A stretch of DNA of 64,000 nucleotides, from NCBI GenBank assembly GCA_022822905.1, contig JAJDYE010000023.1, forward strand, positions 94,521-158,520, given 5' to 3'. This DNA is from Acidimicrobiia bacterium. GTDB taxonomy: Bacteria; Actinomycetota; Acidimicrobiia; Acidimicrobiales; Bin134. Within the stretch, counting starts at the first letter, position 1, and each line of letters starts with the position of its first letter. A program made the position numbers and the translations under genes. The notes below the pieces were generated by a model. That model was not told the origin of the DNA. It worked only from the letters and a program-made list of their open reading frames with translations, and searched no databases. This document shows, piece after piece, positions 55,840 to 64,000 of the stretch.

Positions 55840-57258
55840 TCAAAGTGCGTTCTGCCAGTTTTCGGTAGTGGTCTGCGGTGCCGTCGCGTAGGTCGCGGCC
55901 ACCACGGCCTCGAGTTCGCTGGCGATCGCCGCGTTGTTCTTGATCACGTTGTGCCCCTCCCGGGCATCGGCGTCGCAGTCGGCGAGAAACGCGTCAAACT
56001 CGGCTGGTGGGAGCGTCTTGCCGTCCCGCCGGGTGGAGCGGTCGTAGCGCCAACGGCGGGTCCGGACACAAAAGCGCTGCGGCCAGCCGCCGCCGTCGGT
56101 CCAGTAGCCCACGCCGATAGCAGCCATTGCGGCTATCCCCGGGAGTCCGTACCCAATGGCCGAGATGAGGTGGTCCGGCTCGTCGCCAGACACCAACGAC
56201 CGCCCGTCGCCCACTCGAGCCTCAAGGCCGCACAGATCCAGCAGCGTCGGGCCGAGGTCGACCCCGGCCGCGAGCTCGTGGTTCATCGCGCCGGCATCCA
56301 ACTCGCCGGGCCACGACAGCAGGAAGGGAACTCGGTGCGACCACGGCGAGAACATCTGCTTCGAGTAGGCCCCGCCGAGCTCGCCCAGTTGGGCGCCGTG
56401 GTCGCTGCTGAACACAATGATCGTGTCCCCTCGCAGACCCTGGCGGTGCAGCGCCGCCAAAATCTCACCGATCTGGCCGTCGATCCAGTTCACAAGGCCG
56501 TGGTAGCGGGACTGGGCGGCGACAATCTGTTCCGGCGTGAGGTCGCGGGGTGGGACCTGGCCGAAGACCCGCTCGAATTCCGAGAGCCCCTCCGTCGGGC
56601 CAAACGCGTCAAACGAGTCGGGCCAGGGTGCGTCGTCGTACCTAGATGCCCACGGTTCCGGCACGACGACCGGCGTGTGAGGTTGGAGGAAGCTGACCCG
56701 CAGCAGCCAGGGCTGGTCAGTCGGGCGGTCTCGTTCGAGCCAGCTCACCGCATTTTCGGTAAGACGCCGGGCCGGGAAGGCGAGGCCGTCCGGCCAGGTC
56801 GCAGCGTTAATGCTCACACCATTGGTGATCGGTCCAAGCCGGCCACGGTTCTCACCGAAGGCGATCATCAGCTCAAGCTGGTCGGCACCGTCGTACTCCG
56901 ATTGTTCGAATCCGAGGAGAGCGTCGGGGACGTGCTCCTTGCCGAGGTTGACCGTGTGGTAGCCGGCCCGCGTGAAGACTTCGGTAAACGACTCGACCGG
57001 GACCGCGGCCCCGAGGCCCCGACCGTGGTTGTGGTAAATCCCAGTGGTCGTCGGCAACAGCCCGGACTTGTATGCCGACCGGGCCGACACGCAAACCGGC
57101 GAGTCGACGTAGAACCGATCGAATCGCACGCCTGCCTCGGCGATGGAGTCGATGTTGGGTGTCTTGATCGGCGCGTATTCGTTGCCGTAAACCCCGACCG
57201 CGTCTGAGCGCAGTTCGTCGCACATGATCCACAACACGTTCGGCTGCCTGGGGCTCAT
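55840..57258 (-). CDS. sulfatase (arylsulfatase-type)
   Basis: A 472-residue alkaline-phosphatase-fold sulfatase. ATG 57258 follows AAGGAG; upstream residues are rejected. Seen: QPNVLWIMCDELRSDAVG (metal aspartate D14), DSPVCVSARSAYKSGL with the candidate formylglycine cysteine C56 and R60, and VFSSDHGAQLGELGG. The motif is C-V-S-A-R, deviating from the canonical C-x-P/A-x-R by a serine at +2, so maturation efficiency is uncertain. It has no signal peptide, so a cytosolic sulfate-ester hydrolase is expected. Confidence 0.9.
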   Translation of the reverse strand: MSPRQPNVLWIMCDELRSDAVGVYGNEYAPIKTPNIDSIAEAGVRFDRFYVDSPVCVSARSAYKSGLLPTTTGIYHNHGRGLGAAVPVESFTEVFTRAGYHTVNLGKEHVPDALLGFEQSEYDGADQLELMIAFGENRGRLGPITNGVSINAATWPDGLAFPARRLTENAVSWLERDRPTDQPWLLRVSFLQPHTPVVVPEPWASRYDDAPWPDSFDAFGPTEGLSEFERVFGQVPPRDLTPEQIVAAQSRYHGLVNWIDGQIGEILAALHRQGLRGDTIIVFSSDHGAQLGELGGAYSKQMFSPWSHRVPFLLSWPGELDAGAMNHELAAGVDLGPTLLDLCGLEARVGDGRSLVSGDEPDHLISAIGYGLPGIAAMAAIGVGYWTDGGGWPQRFCVRTRRWRYDRSTRRDGKTLPPAEFDAFLADCDADAREGHNVIKNNAAIASELEAVVAATYATAPQTTTENWQNAL

Positions 57259-57309
57259 GATTCTCCTTGAGGCCACCAAATGCTGGCTGACGAGGCGCCT
57301 CATCAACTA

Positions 57310-57324: not shown

Positions 57325-57389
57325 CAACTTTGGCCCTAGCATCGGGGATCTGGAGCCCGCGAGCCGCCGACCGAGCTGAGGAGTCCCGG

Positions 57390-59705
57390 ATGCCACGACG
57401 AGTCGGCAGAAAGCAGACACACTCTGGAATTGCAGGGGACCACGCCGACCCATCCGAAGCGAGTGGCCTGAGCGATCAGATCCTGGCCGCGGAGGCAGAA
57501 CGCCAGGCGGAGTTGGCCGCGGAACCGGTGATTCTGGACGACAGCGAGCTTCCTGGCGTCGGTACCGAGGAGCTATCGCTGCGAGAGGCGGTGGCAGTTG
57601 GAGGTGTGTCCACCATCGCGCTGTTGGGGGCACTTGACGCCGCCGATGCCCTTGGAATCAGCGCACTGGGCCTCCTCGGCCCCGACGTCCAAGAATCGCT
57701 CGGGGTGAGCGACGCCGTGCTGGGCACCATCACCGCGGGAGGCAACGTTTTCCTCGTGGCCGGAGGCCTGCTGCTGTCCCGGATCGCTGACAATTCCAAT
57801 CGGTCGAAACTGGTGGCCCTAGCCACCATCTTCTGGTCGGCCATGACCCTTCTGCTGGGGTTCGTTCCCACCGCGCTCTGGTTCTTCATTGTCAACTGCG
57901 CCATCGCCTTCGGCCGGTCGCAGACCCATCCGGTGCAGGGCGCCATCATGGCCGACAGCTACCCGGTTGAGGCTCGGGCCCGGGTGTATGCCGCCAAGGA
58001 CGTGGCCGGACGGTCGGGCGCATTCATCGCGCCGCTGGCCGTCGGCGGGTTGGTTTCGCTGATCGGCGGCGACGACGCCTGGCGCTGGGGTTTTATTGCC
58101 GCGTCCTTTCCGACGCTGATCATCGGCGCAGCCATCTTGTTCCTCACCGACCCGCCCCGGGGCCAATTCGAGCAGCGCGCCACCGTCGGCGAAGCGCTGA
58201 CCGACTTGAAGCCGGGGCCCATATCGCTCGGTGCCGCCTTCCAACGGCTCTTCAAGGTGCGCACGCTCAAATGGGCGTTCGTGGGCGCGGTGGCCATCGG
58301 CTTCAGCTTGATCTCCGACGGGCTATTCCTGAACCTCTACCTCGACGAACGCTTCGACCTCGGCCCGTTTGAGCGGGCCCTGGCCAACAACACTCCCGGC
58401 GTGATCGCCCTGTTCATGATCCCGTTCGTGGCCAAGTGGTACGACACCTTCTACCGCCGAACCCCGCCGCGGGCCATGGCGCTATTGGGCACGCTGTTCT
58501 TCCCGATGGCGTTCTTCACGGTGCTCCAACTGTTGATGCCGACACCGGCGACATTCGCGGTGATGGCCGGGCTCAAGGCGCTGTTTGCCGCCCCGGCCCT
58601 CTCGCTGCTCGGGCCAACCCTGGCCCACATCAACCCCTACCGCATGCGGGCGCTGGGCTCGGCCATCGGCATGTCGCTGGTCTTTGGGATTGGGGGCCTC
58701 GGGGGAGCGATTTTGATGGGCCTGATCTCCGATGCCACCTCGCCCCGCACTGCCCTTTTGGCCGTGGTTCCAGTGGGCATGGTCATCGGCGGTTTGTTCA
58801 TGATCAACGGGTCCCGGCACATCCGGGCCGACCTCACGCTGGTGGTAGAGGAGATCAGAGAGGAAAAGGCTGAGAACGACCGCATGAGGGCCGATCCTCA
58901 CTCCATCCCCGCGCTTTCGCTCCACAACATCGACTTCTCCTACGGCCCGGTGCAGGTTCTGTTCGATGTGAACCTCGAGGTGGCCCGGGGTGAGACCCTG
59001 GCGTTGCTCGGGACCAACGGAGCGGGCAAATCCACGGCTCTGCGGGTGGCCGCCGGTTTGGGCATCCCCTCCCGGGGCGTGGTGCGGCTCAACGGCCGCA
59101 ACATGACCTTGGCGTCGCCTGAGCAACGGGTAAGGGAGGGCATCTTCTTGCTGCCGGGCGGCCAAGGAGTGTTTCCCCACCTCACAGTCCTTGAGAACCT
59201 CGAGACCTCAGCGGCGGTCATCCGCAGCGATGCCGATACCAAGCCCGACATCGCCGGGCGGCTAGATCGGGCATTCGAGCTGTTCCCGGTGCTCGGCCAG
59301 CGACCCAAGGCGTTGGCTCACGACCTCAGCGGCGGGCAGAAGCAGATGCTGGCGCTGGCCCGGGTGATCATGCACGACCCGGAGGTGCTCATCATCGACG
59401 AGCTCTCCCTTGGCCTTGCTCCTGTCGTGGTCCAAGACCTGCTAGCCGTGGTCGAGCGTCTGCGCGACGCCGGCCAGACGATGATCATCGTGGAGCAGTC
59501 GCTCAATGTCGCCCTGACATTGGCTGATCGTGCTGTGTTCATGGAGAAGGGCCATGTGCGATTCACCGGGTCGGCCCAGAGCCTTTTGGAGCGCGACGAC
59601 TTGGCCCGCGCCGTGTTCTTGGGCCGCGACGCCGCTACCGGTCCGCAATCTGATCAGGACCGCGCCGAGGCCGACCGCACGCAATCTGATCCGGACGAAA
59701 ACTGA
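57390..59705 (+). CDS. fusion of MFS transporter domain and LivF-type ABC ATPase
   Basis: A 771-residue protein. After about 50 hydrophilic residues come roughly twelve membrane helices of a major-facilitator domain (for example GRSQTHPVQGAIMADSYPVE; ends about 470). From residue 500 follows a LivF-like ATPase: LLGTNGAGKST (Walker A, about 539-549), LSGGQKQMLALARVI (signature, about 645) and VLIIDELSLGLAP (Walker B, about 666). ATG 57390 follows GAGGAG. The stop overlaps the next gene, which encodes the rest of the importer. The MFS part is unusual in this setting; a shared-substrate exporter or sensor role is inference. Confidence 0.85.
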   Translation: MPRRVGRKQTHSGIAGDHADPSEASGLSDQILAAEAERQAELAAEPVILDDSELPGVGTEELSLREAVAVGGVSTIALLGALDAADALGISALGLLGPDVQESLGVSDAVLGTITAGGNVFLVAGGLLLSRIADNSNRSKLVALATIFWSAMTLLLGFVPTALWFFIVNCAIAFGRSQTHPVQGAIMADSYPVEARARVYAAKDVAGRSGAFIAPLAVGGLVSLIGGDDAWRWGFIAASFPTLIIGAAILFLTDPPRGQFEQRATVGEALTDLKPGPISLGAAFQRLFKVRTLKWAFVGAVAIGFSLISDGLFLNLYLDERFDLGPFERALANNTPGVIALFMIPFVAKWYDTFYRRTPPRAMALLGTLFFPMAFFTVLQLLMPTPATFAVMAGLKALFAAPALSLLGPTLAHINPYRMRALGSAIGMSLVFGIGGLGGAILMGLISDATSPRTALLAVVPVGMVIGGLFMINGSRHIRADLTLVVEEIREEKAENDRMRADPHSIPALSLHNIDFSYGPVQVLFDVNLEVARGETLALLGTNGAGKSTALRVAAGLGIPSRGVVRLNGRNMTLASPEQRVREGIFLLPGGQGVFPHLTVLENLETSAAVIRSDADTKPDIAGRLDRAFELFPVLGQRPKALAHDLSGGQKQMLALARVIMHDPEVLIIDELSLGLAPVVVQDLLAVVERLRDAGQTMIIVEQSLNVALTLADRAVFMEKGHVRFTGSAQSLLERDDLARAVFLGRDAATGPQSDQDRAEADRTQSDPDEN

Positions 59706-62575
59706 TGCTGGCTTTCACCCTCACCAGCCAAATCGTCTACCTCGGGGTGATAGACGGCCTGTTGATCGGCTTGTTGGCCCTCGGCGTTGTGCTGATCTAC
59801 CGGGCCAGCGGGGTCATCAACTTCGCGGTGGGATCACTCGGAGTGCTGTCGGCCAGCCTGCTGGCCCTGTTGGTGCTCAACTATGGCTGGCCGTTCTGGC
59901 CCGCGGCCATCGTCTCGGTGGTGGCGGGCGGCCTGATCGCCGCCGCGCTGGAGCTCACCGTGATCACCCGGTTGTTCCGCGCCCCGAGGGTCATCCTCCT
60001 GGTGGCCACCATCGGGATCGCCCAGCTCTGCGAGCTGCTCCAAGTGGCGCTGCCCGATATCGACGTGTCGATGGCGAGCCGATACCCGGTGGCGTTGTCC
60101 GGTCGGTGGGAAATCCTCGGTCTGCGAGTGCGAGGCGCCGAGCTGATCGTGATCATCGTTGTGCCCGTCCTCACCGCGGCCCTCACCTACTACCTCCAGC
60201 GCACGGCCCAAGGCCGGGCGATTCGGGCCGCGGCCTCCAACCCCGATCTGGCCCGGCTCACCGCCATCAGCCCCAAGATCATCTCGACCATCACCTGGAT
60301 CATCGCGGGCCTGCTGGCCGCGGTGGCATTGATCTTGGTGGCGGGGATCAACGGCCAGCCCAGCGGATTCCGATCGCTGGGGCCGGCCACCCTGGTCCAG
60401 GTTCTGGCTGCGGCCCTTATCGGGCGGCTTCGCAACTTCCCGGCGGCGATGATTGCCGGAATGGCCCTCGGGCTGCTCCGATCGCTGCTGGTATTCAACT
60501 GGCCGACCACCGCAGGGCTCTACGACGGATCGCTCTTCCTGATCGTCATCGCCACCACACTGCTGGCCAGCCGGCGGCTCACCGGCAGCGACGAGTCGTT
60601 CTCGTTCGTGCCCACCACCCGCCCGCTTCCCCATGCGGTGGCCCGCCTCTGGTGGGTTCGCCACTCCTCCCGCATCGGCATTGGCCTGCTCATCGCGGGC
60701 GCAGCCATTCTCCCCTTCCTGGTCACCCTGGCATCGCGCCAGCTCCTGTTCAGCGAAGTGCTGCTCTTCGCCCTGATCGGCATTTCGCTGGTGGTGCTCT
60801 CCGGATGGACCGGACAGATCTCGCTGGGGCAGGCCGCGCTGGCCGGAATCGGCGGTCTGACCACCGCCGCATTGGTGGCCGGACGCGACATCGGGGTCGG
60901 CCTGGGAGGGGCATCATTCACGTTGGCCCTGCCCGATATCCACTTCCTGTTGGCCCTGCTGGTGGGCGCGGCGGTCACTGGTGCCATCGCCGTGGTCATC
61001 GGGTTGGGCGCGTTGCGCATTCGGGGATTCCATCTCGCCATCGCCACCTTGGCGTTGGCCTTGTTGGGGCAGCAGTTCCTCTGGCGGCGACCATTCCTCT
61101 CGGGCGGTTCCTACACCGTCTCTCTCCCCCGAACCACGGGGCCGGTCGATCTGGACGACCAGCGCAGCTACTACTTCTTCTCGCTGTTTGCCCTGGTGGT
61201 GGTGATCGTTCTGGTGGCCAGAATGCGAGCCACCGGGGTTGGGCGCCGATGGCTGGCGGTGCGGGACAACAGCACCGCTGCGTCGGCCTACACGATCTCT
61301 CCCTCCCGGGCGGGAATCCAGGCATTCGTGGTGTCCGGGGTGATCGCCGGACTCGGCGGCGGACTCTTGGCCGGGCTGTACGTCTCCGTTGGGCTTACCG
61401 AGAAGTTCCAGCTCGAACATTCCATCGAGGTTGTCGCCATCGCGGTGATCGGCGGCGCCGGAACCGTGGTCGGGCCGATTCTCGGTGCCCTGTGGATCGT
61501 GGGCCTTCCCGCCGTCTGGCCCGCCAACGACTTGGTGCCGCTATTGACGTCCTCCGTCGGGCTGCTGGTTCTCTTGATGTATTTCCCGGGCGGATTCGCC
61601 CAAGTGGTGCTTACCGGACGCGACCGCTTCCTGGCCTGGTATGCAGCCCGGCTTCCCGAACCCGAGCCGCCGCCGAGACGCGAGGTGGCCAGTGTGGTGT
61701 CCCGATCTGGCGTTGCCGCCACCACCGGGCCGGTGCTGGTCGCCGAGGAGGTGACCGTGACTTTCGGAGGCCTGACCGCAGTCGACAACGCCTCGATCCG
61801 AGTCCACGCCGGAGAGGTGGTGGGCCTTATCGGTACCAACGGGGCGGGCAAGACCACCCTGATGAACGCCATCAGCGGGTTCGTCCCGTGCTCCGGTCGA
61901 ATCCAACTCGAAGGCCGCGCCATCGAGAAGCTGGCCGCCGACCGGCGAGCTGCGCTTGGTTTGGGCCGGGCGTTTCAGCAGTCGCGGCTGTTTCCCGATC
62001 TGACCGTGCTCGAGACCCTGGCAGTGGCGGCCGAATCGCGCCAGCGAACCTCTTTCACCACCGCGGTGGCGCATCTTCCCAACGGTTATCGCCGCGACCG
62101 GGCCCAGCGAGCCCACGCCCAAGACATCGCCGATTTCCTCGGGCTCGGCCCCTACGCCGACAAATTCACCTCCGAGCTCTCTACCGGCACCCGTCGCATC
62201 GTCGAACTTGGCTGCCTGCTGGCTCTGGAGGCCCGCGTGCTGTGCCTGGACGAGCCCACTGGAGGGGTGGCCCAGCGCGAAGTCGAGGCGTTCGCCCCCC
62301 TGCTGTTGTCGATCAAAGACCAACTGGGCGCCGCCATGCTTGTGATCGAGCACGACATGCCCATGATCATGCAGATCAGCCACCGGATCTATTGTCTGGA
62401 AGCAGGCCGCGTGATCGCGATGGGGTCGCCCGCTGAAGTTCGCGCCGATCCTGCGGTGATCGCCTCCTACCTCGGCACCGACGAACGGGCCATCCGCCGT
62501 TCGGGGGCATCCGCTTCGGCCGAAGAAGCACACTTACCAACGCCGACTACTGTTCTCAACGAGGGGGAATCATGA
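59705..62575 (+). CDS. LivH-LivM-LivG fusion: branched-chain-amino-acid-type ABC permease/ATPase
   Basis: A 956-residue protein combining two permease domains and one ATPase. Residues about 1-290 are LivH-like (VIDGLLIGLLALGVVLIYRA, GVINFAVGSLGVLSA), about 320-640 LivM-like (SGWTGQISLGQAALAGIGG and QFLWRRPFLSGGSY). From about 675 there is a LivG ATPase: LIGTNGAGKTTLMNAISGF (about 708), the LSTG signature (about 822), and VLCLDEPTGGVAQREVE (about 845). It starts at ATG 59705 sharing an A with the previous stop and overlaps the binding-protein start. Confidence 0.92.
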   Translation: MLAFTLTSQIVYLGVIDGLLIGLLALGVVLIYRASGVINFAVGSLGVLSASLLALLVLNYGWPFWPAAIVSVVAGGLIAAALELTVITRLFRAPRVILLVATIGIAQLCELLQVALPDIDVSMASRYPVALSGRWEILGLRVRGAELIVIIVVPVLTAALTYYLQRTAQGRAIRAAASNPDLARLTAISPKIISTITWIIAGLLAAVALILVAGINGQPSGFRSLGPATLVQVLAAALIGRLRNFPAAMIAGMALGLLRSLLVFNWPTTAGLYDGSLFLIVIATTLLASRRLTGSDESFSFVPTTRPLPHAVARLWWVRHSSRIGIGLLIAGAAILPFLVTLASRQLLFSEVLLFALIGISLVVLSGWTGQISLGQAALAGIGGLTTAALVAGRDIGVGLGGASFTLALPDIHFLLALLVGAAVTGAIAVVIGLGALRIRGFHLAIATLALALLGQQFLWRRPFLSGGSYTVSLPRTTGPVDLDDQRSYYFFSLFALVVVIVLVARMRATGVGRRWLAVRDNSTAASAYTISPSRAGIQAFVVSGVIAGLGGGLLAGLYVSVGLTEKFQLEHSIEVVAIAVIGGAGTVVGPILGALWIVGLPAVWPANDLVPLLTSSVGLLVLLMYFPGGFAQVVLTGRDRFLAWYAARLPEPEPPPRREVASVVSRSGVAATTGPVLVAEEVTVTFGGLTAVDNASIRVHAGEVVGLIGTNGAGKTTLMNAISGFVPCSGRIQLEGRAIEKLAADRRAALGLGRAFQQSRLFPDLTVLETLAVAAESRQRTSFTTAVAHLPNGYRRDRAQRAHAQDIADFLGLGPYADKFTSELSTGTRRIVELGCLLALEARVLCLDEPTGGVAQREVEAFAPLLLSIKDQLGAAMLVIEHDMPMIMQISHRIYCLEAGRVIAMGSPAEVRADPAVIASYLGTDERAIRRSGASASAEEAHLPTPTTVLNEGES

Positions 62576-64000
62576 AAAAGCTGCTCACATTCTTGGCAGT
62601 TTTCGGCCTGCTCGCTGCGGCCTGTGCCGGGGGCGACTCCGGCAACGAGGCCGGCAATAGGGATAGCGCCCCACCCGACGCCCCACCCGCGACCCAAGCT
62701 GTCGAGGCCCCCGCGCCCGATGACGCTGGCACCTCCGATGACGCTGGCACCAGCGATAACACTGGCACACCGCAACCAACGGGTGACGACGGGGCTGGCG
62801 ATGCCCCCGAAGACACCGCCAGCCCAGAGCCCTCCGATGATGTTTCAGCGAGCGAGGAAAAAGGAGCCATATCCGACCCCATCTTCCAGCCGACGTGCCA
62901 GGGAGAAGGCGAGCTCAGCTCCACCGCCACCGGCGTCACCGCGGAAACCATCAAGGTCGGTGCCCCCCAGATCGACTATGCGGAGCTGAGCAATCTGGGG
63001 CTGGTTCAGCTCGACCGAGGCGACAACGAGGTGATTCTCCAGGCCCTGGCCCAGGAGGTGAACGACAACGGGGGGATCTGCGGTCGCATGGTGGAGACGG
63101 TGACCTACAAGTTCCTTCCCTTCGGTACCGACACCTCGTTGGCCGGCTGCGTTTACTTCACCGAGGACGAGCAGGTGTTTGCGGTTTTGGGCCCTTTCAC
63201 CCGGGTGCCGGCTGGAAACATCTGCGTGACCGAAACCCATAGCACTGCACTCCTCGGCGCCCCGTTCAACGCTGAAGACCGGGCCAGGGCCAATGCTCCC
63301 TGGGTCCACCTGGAAATCGCCACCGACCGGGTGCTGGAGGTGTTTGTAGCCGCATTGGACAAGGCTGGCCTGCTCGCCGATCTCGGAAATGTGGCCGTGC
63401 ACTCCGGTGCCGGACGCCAGGAATTGGTGGACAACGTTCTGGTTCCTGCCCTTGAGGCCGCCGGGGTGGAAGTCGCCGAGCGAACGGTGATCGATGTGCC
63501 GTCCGGCGACACCCAAGCCGGGGCGGCGGTGTGGCGGACCTTCGCGGAGATCTACCGGAACGCCGACATCAACACCGTCTTCATCGATGGCGACAACGTC
63601 TTCGGGGTGGAACAGCTCATCCAGAACGGCCTAGACGTCAAGCTGTTCAATGCGGAATTCTCCACCTTCTCCTATGGGCTGGGCGGCTCAAGCGACCCCG
63701 GCTACTTCGAGGCTTACACACTCGGCTCGCCATACGCTGGCGACGACACCAACCAGCGGACGGACGACTGCATAGACGCCTTCGAGCGCCAATCGGGAAT
63801 CGAGGTGATCCCCACCGAGCAGTTGCCGGAAGACGAAACCGACTGGTTTACCCCGGTACGCGGTTATTGCCGCGTATTCGACCTGTTCGTGCAGCTAGCC
63901 GCCGCAGCCGGCCCGAACCTCACCAACGAGACCCTTCAGGCGGCAATCGACGGCTTTGGGCCAATCGAGCTGCCCAATGAGGCGTTCGCTTCGCTGGGTG
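62572..64000 (+). CDS. ABC transporter substrate-binding lipoprotein (cut by window end)
   Basis: The open frame continues beyond base 64000. The start ATG 62572 overlaps the permease stop and is preceded by GAGGGGG. MKKLLTFLAVFGLLAAACAG is a lipoprotein signal with lipobox LAAAC; a long acidic/Pro/Thr linker to about residue 105 includes the DDAGTS repeat. The ligand-binding domain begins TAETIKVGAPQIDYAELS. It is the binding protein of the importer encoded by the two upstream genes. Confidence 0.9.
   Translation, partial: MKKLLTFLAVFGLLAAACAGGDSGNEAGNRDSAPPDAPPATQAVEAPAPDDAGTSDDAGTSDNTGTPQPTGDDGAGDAPEDTASPEPSDDVSASEEKGAISDPIFQPTCQGEGELSSTATGVTAETIKVGAPQIDYAELSNLGLVQLDRGDNEVILQALAQEVNDNGGICGRMVETVTYKFLPFGTDTSLAGCVYFTEDEQVFAVLGPFTRVPAGNICVTETHSTALLGAPFNAEDRARANAPWVHLEIATDRVLEVFVAALDKAGLLADLGNVAVHSGAGRQELVDNVLVPALEAAGVEVAERTVIDVPSGDTQAGAAVWRTFAEIYRNADINTVFIDGDNVFGVEQLIQNGLDVKLFNAEFSTFSYGLGGSSDPGYFEAYTLGSPYAGDDTNQRTDDCIDAFERQSGIEVIPTEQLPEDETDWFTPVRGYCRVFDLFVQLAAAAGPNLTNETLQAAIDGFGPIELPNEAFASLG
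62719..62772. repeat. three 18-bp in-frame tandem repeats in the lipoprotein linker
   Basis: Units encode DDAGTS, DDAGTS and DNTGTP. They form part of the flexible linker between lipid anchor and binding domain. Length variation between strains is expected. Confidence 0.8.

Follow-up and report, generated by a model that had tools for sequence, protein, structure and literature searches.

ATP-driven transport by ABC systems and secondary transport by proteins of the major facilitator superfamily (MFS) are regarded as separate machines. At the end of a 64,000-nucleotide stretch of DNA from an Acidimicrobiia bacterium, which is called the window here, an MFS domain and the ABC ATPase LivF are encoded as a single polypeptide, beside the other genes of a Liv-type importer. 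The question raised by this locus is whether the joining is genuine and, if so, what an MFS domain might be doing in an ABC importer.

Genetic architecture of the locus

An earlier note on this DNA had read the region as LivF fused to a full MFS domain, and this reading holds: 57390-59705 (forward strand, as are all the transporter genes) is one frame, open throughout and encoding 771 residues, in which domain profiles find MFS_1 (residues 87-378, E 3.4e-28) followed by ABC_tran (residues 525-671, E 3e-26). The Spns-like MFS domain spans 57579-58823 (about residues 64-478) and has about 12 transmembrane (TM) helices, judged from hydropathy and from a profile match in which solved SPNS2 chains cover almost the entire domain. 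It is followed by a length-constrained linker after TM12 (58824-58907, about residues 479-506) and by the LivF ATPase (58908-59633, about residues 507-748), the top NCBIfam matches of which are UrtE and LivF. The LivF motifs, i.e. Walker A with K547, the signature LSGGQ, Walker B with D670/E671, and Q703, are intact and are invariant in 58 fused homologues. Since the first ~20 residues of the chain are weakly conserved, the alignment of homologues beginning only at about residue 20, the exact start codon is uncertain, and a TTG at 57330, upstream of 57390, is an alternative.

The second gene, which overlaps the first by 1 nt, occupies 59705-62575 and encodes a single chain of 956 residues with two BPD_transp_2 stretches, ABC_tran and BCA_ABC_TP_C; as had been proposed, it is LivH-LivM-LivG. 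The LivH permease part lies at 59705-60604 (residues 1-300), the LivM permease part at 60680-61624 (residues 326-640) and the LivG ATPase part, which includes BCA_ABC_TP_C, at 61727-62488 (residues 675-928); in the window sequence, Walker A, signature and Walker B of LivG can all be read as intact. The third gene starts at 62572 and thus overlaps the second by 4 nt, in agreement with the overlapping start noted earlier, and encodes a substrate-binding lipoprotein with the lipobox LAAAC and a Peripla_BP_6 match at 32.2 bits, against a cut-off of 31.7. The layout of an importer in three polypeptides is thus borne out by the domain profiles, but, contrary to what the earlier note had implied, the binding protein is not complete in the window; it is cut at position 64000 and reaches 514 residues in the source contig. 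Codon-position GC is coding-like along each of the three chains.

With two BPD_transp_2 permeases, a LivG carrying BCA_ABC_TP_C, a LivF/UrtE-like ATPase and a Peripla_BP_6 lipoprotein, the system resembles the Liv/HAAT importers (TC 3.A.1.4; LivFGHM, UrtABCDE). It differs from them in that LivF carries an N-terminal MFS and in that LivH, LivM and LivG form one chain. On its sequence, which holds two permeases, two ATPases with intact motifs and a binding lipoprotein, the importer is of the Liv/HAAT type with all of its parts present, and we are confident that its anatomy is that of a Liv/HAAT-type importer whose LivF is tethered to a full-length, Spns-derived MFS. The literature searched, outside which most subscription papers fall, yielded no description of an MFS-ABC ATPase fusion, and the MFS-LivF importer is apparently an undescribed variant of a known importer.

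Reality and spread of the fusion

An assembly artefact was named at the outset as what would undo the fusion; nothing was found in favour of an artefact of assembly or annotation, and its probability is negligible. Eight further assemblies of the genus, recorded as Acidimicrobiia metagenome-assembled genomes, carry orthologues with the same layout and about 88-98% identity, and the fusion also occurs in four single-contig genomes (G007, G014, G023 and G027) and on a replicon of the cultured Embleya sp. NBC_00888, the homologue of which is about 47% identical. The junction shows no frame break in these independent assemblies, and the artefact explanation was rejected. The genome of the window itself holds five MFS-LivF operons of this type. 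The earlier note had left the commonness of the fusion in the lineage unjudged; a sample of the class yields matches at E 1e-70 in 82 of 296 genomes, mostly over the whole fusion, and a sample of the phylum yields them at E 1e-60 in 22 of 396, a few being confined to LivF. Both counts are rough, as scoring was restricted to the few best candidates of each genome. Outside the class, a small number of other families in the phylum carry the fusion, and so does the cultured Embleya, which was also the sole fusion match among plasmid records at E 1e-50. A scan of genome contigs with a single protein as the query returned only close relatives. The fusion is thus real and widespread in the class Acidimicrobiia.

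Domain profiles were used to read the architectures of about 70 loci, and in every fused chain the MFS directly precedes LivF. The window represents one of two main designs, [MFS-LivF] + [LivH-LivM-LivG]; the other is [LivH-LivM] + [MFS-LivF-LivG], and minor designs keep LivG or LivH-LivM separate. MFS-free Liv systems also occur in the lineage, the genus of the window included, among them a single LivH-LivM-LivF-LivG chain of ~1284 residues. Chains of this last kind, about 1283-1327 residues long and free of MFS, were seen at L162:3899-7750 (same genus), L134:5414-9262 and L160:3089-7069. At L122:6648-8864 (genome G040), a LivF-LivG chain carries at the MFS position a hydrophobic N-terminal segment of ~200 residues that is unrelated to MFS and has about four TM helices by inspection. 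The LivH-LivM-LivG chain at L102:2726-6034 has 1103 residues, about 165 of which form an unusually long and partly hydrophobic stretch between LivM and LivG. Two loci with a seemingly partial MFS, L159 and L161, were set aside, being truncated at a contig edge.

History of the MFS domain

A maximum likelihood tree of MFS domains, made by a quick search, rooted on HnSpns and containing several open forks, places all 64 fused rows in one clade of 68 rows (support 97), within which the fused rows divide into the two main designs. A single fusion event is favoured, though not proven, given how quickly the tree was made and the open forks it contains. The remaining four rows of the clade are stand-alone MFS proteins, nested in the half with the MFS-LivF-LivG design; four further stand-alone MFS proteins from the same order branch outside the clade. 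Three of the nested proteins, those of L136, L137 and L140, are intact MFS proteins without an attached LivF, while in the fourth, L135, too little of the contig follows the stop codon to show whether LivF is present or absent. The three genes lie at L136:4962-6347, L137:6259-7821 and L140:941-2452. The nested rows indicate that the MFS separated again from LivF after the fusion, and the existence of unfused copies within the fused clade suggests a role for the domain in its own right, although the nested proteins may have changed function once separated.

Residues of the MFS domain in comparison with Spns transporters

By profile, the Spns chains of known structure are closer to the MFS domain than other solved MFS proteins are (E 1.3e-46 against HnSpns 6e8j, with SPNS2 also matched over nearly the whole domain), and the homology with the Spns family (TC 2.A.1.49; HnSpns 6e8j, SPNS2, MsSpns) extends across the domain. 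The fused MFS domains share with this family motif A, the TM4-5 D/R and the WR residues, and the gate residues R138, D189, R196, W231-R232 and R420 are all kept; R138, R232 and R420 are invariant in the 58 fused homologues and D189 is found in 57 of them. The proton relay of Spns proteins consists, in HnSpns numbering, of D41/R42 of TM1 and R122/E129 of TM4 (PMC13192786). In an alignment verified by adding HnSpns itself, the window has G89, I90, N169 and R176 at these positions, i.e. none of the four residues, and not one of the 58 aligned fused homologues has the full relay. The TM4 relay position is acidic in 4 of the 58 and basic (K/R) in 34, R176 in the window among the latter. The earlier question of whether conserved MFS residues are intact thus receives a divided answer, the general gate residues being kept and the Spns relay being incomplete throughout.

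Besides the relay (PMC13192786), the window protein differs from Spns transporters in being joined to an ABC ATPase, and the fused proteins differ from the unfused sisters at R329, which is R in all 58 aligned fused rows and E/T/T/A in the sisters; a divergent fused row, L146, lacks R at this position. Because the relay is incomplete, the domain is classed as Spns-related and not as a Spns-type proton-coupled transporter. The TM4 acid is also missing from the unfused sister clade, so its loss characterises the wider subfamily and need not by itself mean that transport was lost.

Selection and the tether

Between orthologues, dN/dS is 0.10 for the MFS domain, 0.11 for LivH, 0.09 for LivM and 0.06 for LivF, and the MFS is under purifying selection, like LivH and LivM. 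Its pairwise identities correlate with those of LivM as closely as those of LivH do (r = 0.857 in both cases), a co-divergence that is partly expected from the operon descent common to both. The dN/dS values bear on the idea that the MFS fold was retained solely as a membrane anchor of LivF or an assembly aid, which we consider rather improbable. It would fit the related Liv systems that tie LivF directly to LivH-LivM-LivG and the non-MFS hydrophobic segment of L122. However, the MFS and the permeases have equal dN/dS, R138, R232 and R420 do not vary, stand-alone copies persist, and TM helices would probably have been lost across such divergence if the domain served as an anchor alone. Comparing cavity with support helices did not separate a transporter from a scaffold: across the family, conservation is no higher in the cavity helices (entropy 2.42) than in the support helices (2.33), and at the orthologue level the contrast is small (15/97 vs 19/84 variable sites).

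In 57 of 58 homologues, 41-44 residues separate an invariant D481 from the LivF VQVLF motif (sd 1.0), whereas the length of the cytoplasmic loop 6-7 is more variable (sd 3.6) and the LivF-LivG gap ranges from 23 to 87. The sequence of the MFS-LivF linker is itself variable (entropy 2.5), and its dN/dS (0.09) is lower than that of the LivM-LivG linker (0.25), both being rough values from short stretches. With length kept and sequence not kept, it is geometry that appears to be conserved, and the linker would be a tether that holds a fixed distance. The tail after TM12 is also found in unfused sister MFS proteins and is therefore older than the fusion. A structure prediction of the fusion (pLDDT 31) was not used.

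The near-fixed tether, together with relay residues lost and gate residues kept, is what would be expected of a transceptor, in which the MFS binds a solute and rocks without transporting it, the tether relaying this movement to LivF and tuning the ATPase of the importer. The MFS of fused chains is always joined to the ATPase LivF, and there is a precedent in the sensor kinase-MFS fusions listed in TCDB as family 2.A.1.34, where an MFS is likewise covalently bound to an ATP-using cytoplasmic domain (PMC3924187). Unlike in that family, the partner here is the ABC ATPase of a transporter, and domain profiles find no kinase domain in the window fusion, of which the ABC ATPase is the sole other domain. 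Moreover, the copies that stand unfused within the clade would lack a target to regulate, the missing TM4 acid is common to unfused sisters as well, and a fixed linker length is by itself no proof of signalling. We regard the transceptor as possible but rather unlikely.

Possible function of the MFS domain

Tentatively, and at somewhat less than an even chance, we favour the interpretation that the MFS is a transporter that lacks the Spns proton relay and operates in tandem with the importer, because the nested stand-alone proteins point to a function that does not depend on LivF, and because the domain is as constrained as the permeases. One MFS would sit beside LivH and LivM in each complex as a stoichiometric subunit and, less certainly, would itself carry another solute alongside the one imported, e.g. 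by exporting or exchanging an anionic product. Its pocket would employ the TM1 acid D86 and the basic TM4 residue (R176 in the window) instead of the Spns relay. A more elaborate pathway can be envisioned where ATP turnover by LivF-LivG drives or gates both import through LivH/LivM and, via the tether, the rocker-switch of the MFS, i.e. a mechanically coupled import-export; we hold this to be improbable.

An ABC ATPase and an MFS domain are thus kept in one polypeptide, at near-fixed spacing, in a large part of a bacterial class. Should the MFS half prove to transport or sense, the complex would reveal how an ABC motor can be linked to a rocker-switch carrier, and the homologue in the cultured Embleya leaves the system open to testing.

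Neighbouring genes and substrate

A divergent sulfatase gene (55840-57306, reverse strand) adjoins the operon as context outside the transporter, with two more beyond the binding-protein gene in the contig. Each of the eight orthologous loci that were read has sulfatases beside the operon. The sulfatases around the operon hint at an organosulfate, its product or another anion as the substrate, for the system of the window only. Surveys of 94 and 55 neighbours found no common neighbour enzyme family; since the neighbours differ between systems, they indicate no substrate for the family, and a family-wide substrate drawn from neighbour genes was rejected. The two downstream sulfatases (L029:10011-13242, the upstream one being that at 55840-57306) are conserved in the orthologous loci, one of them missing in L053. 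Near the window operon there are also genes for an amidase and an FMN oxidoreductase. About 25 kb downstream on the same contig (C30), a second MFS-LivF / LivHMG operon (L030:3244-8441) lies beside a sulfatase.
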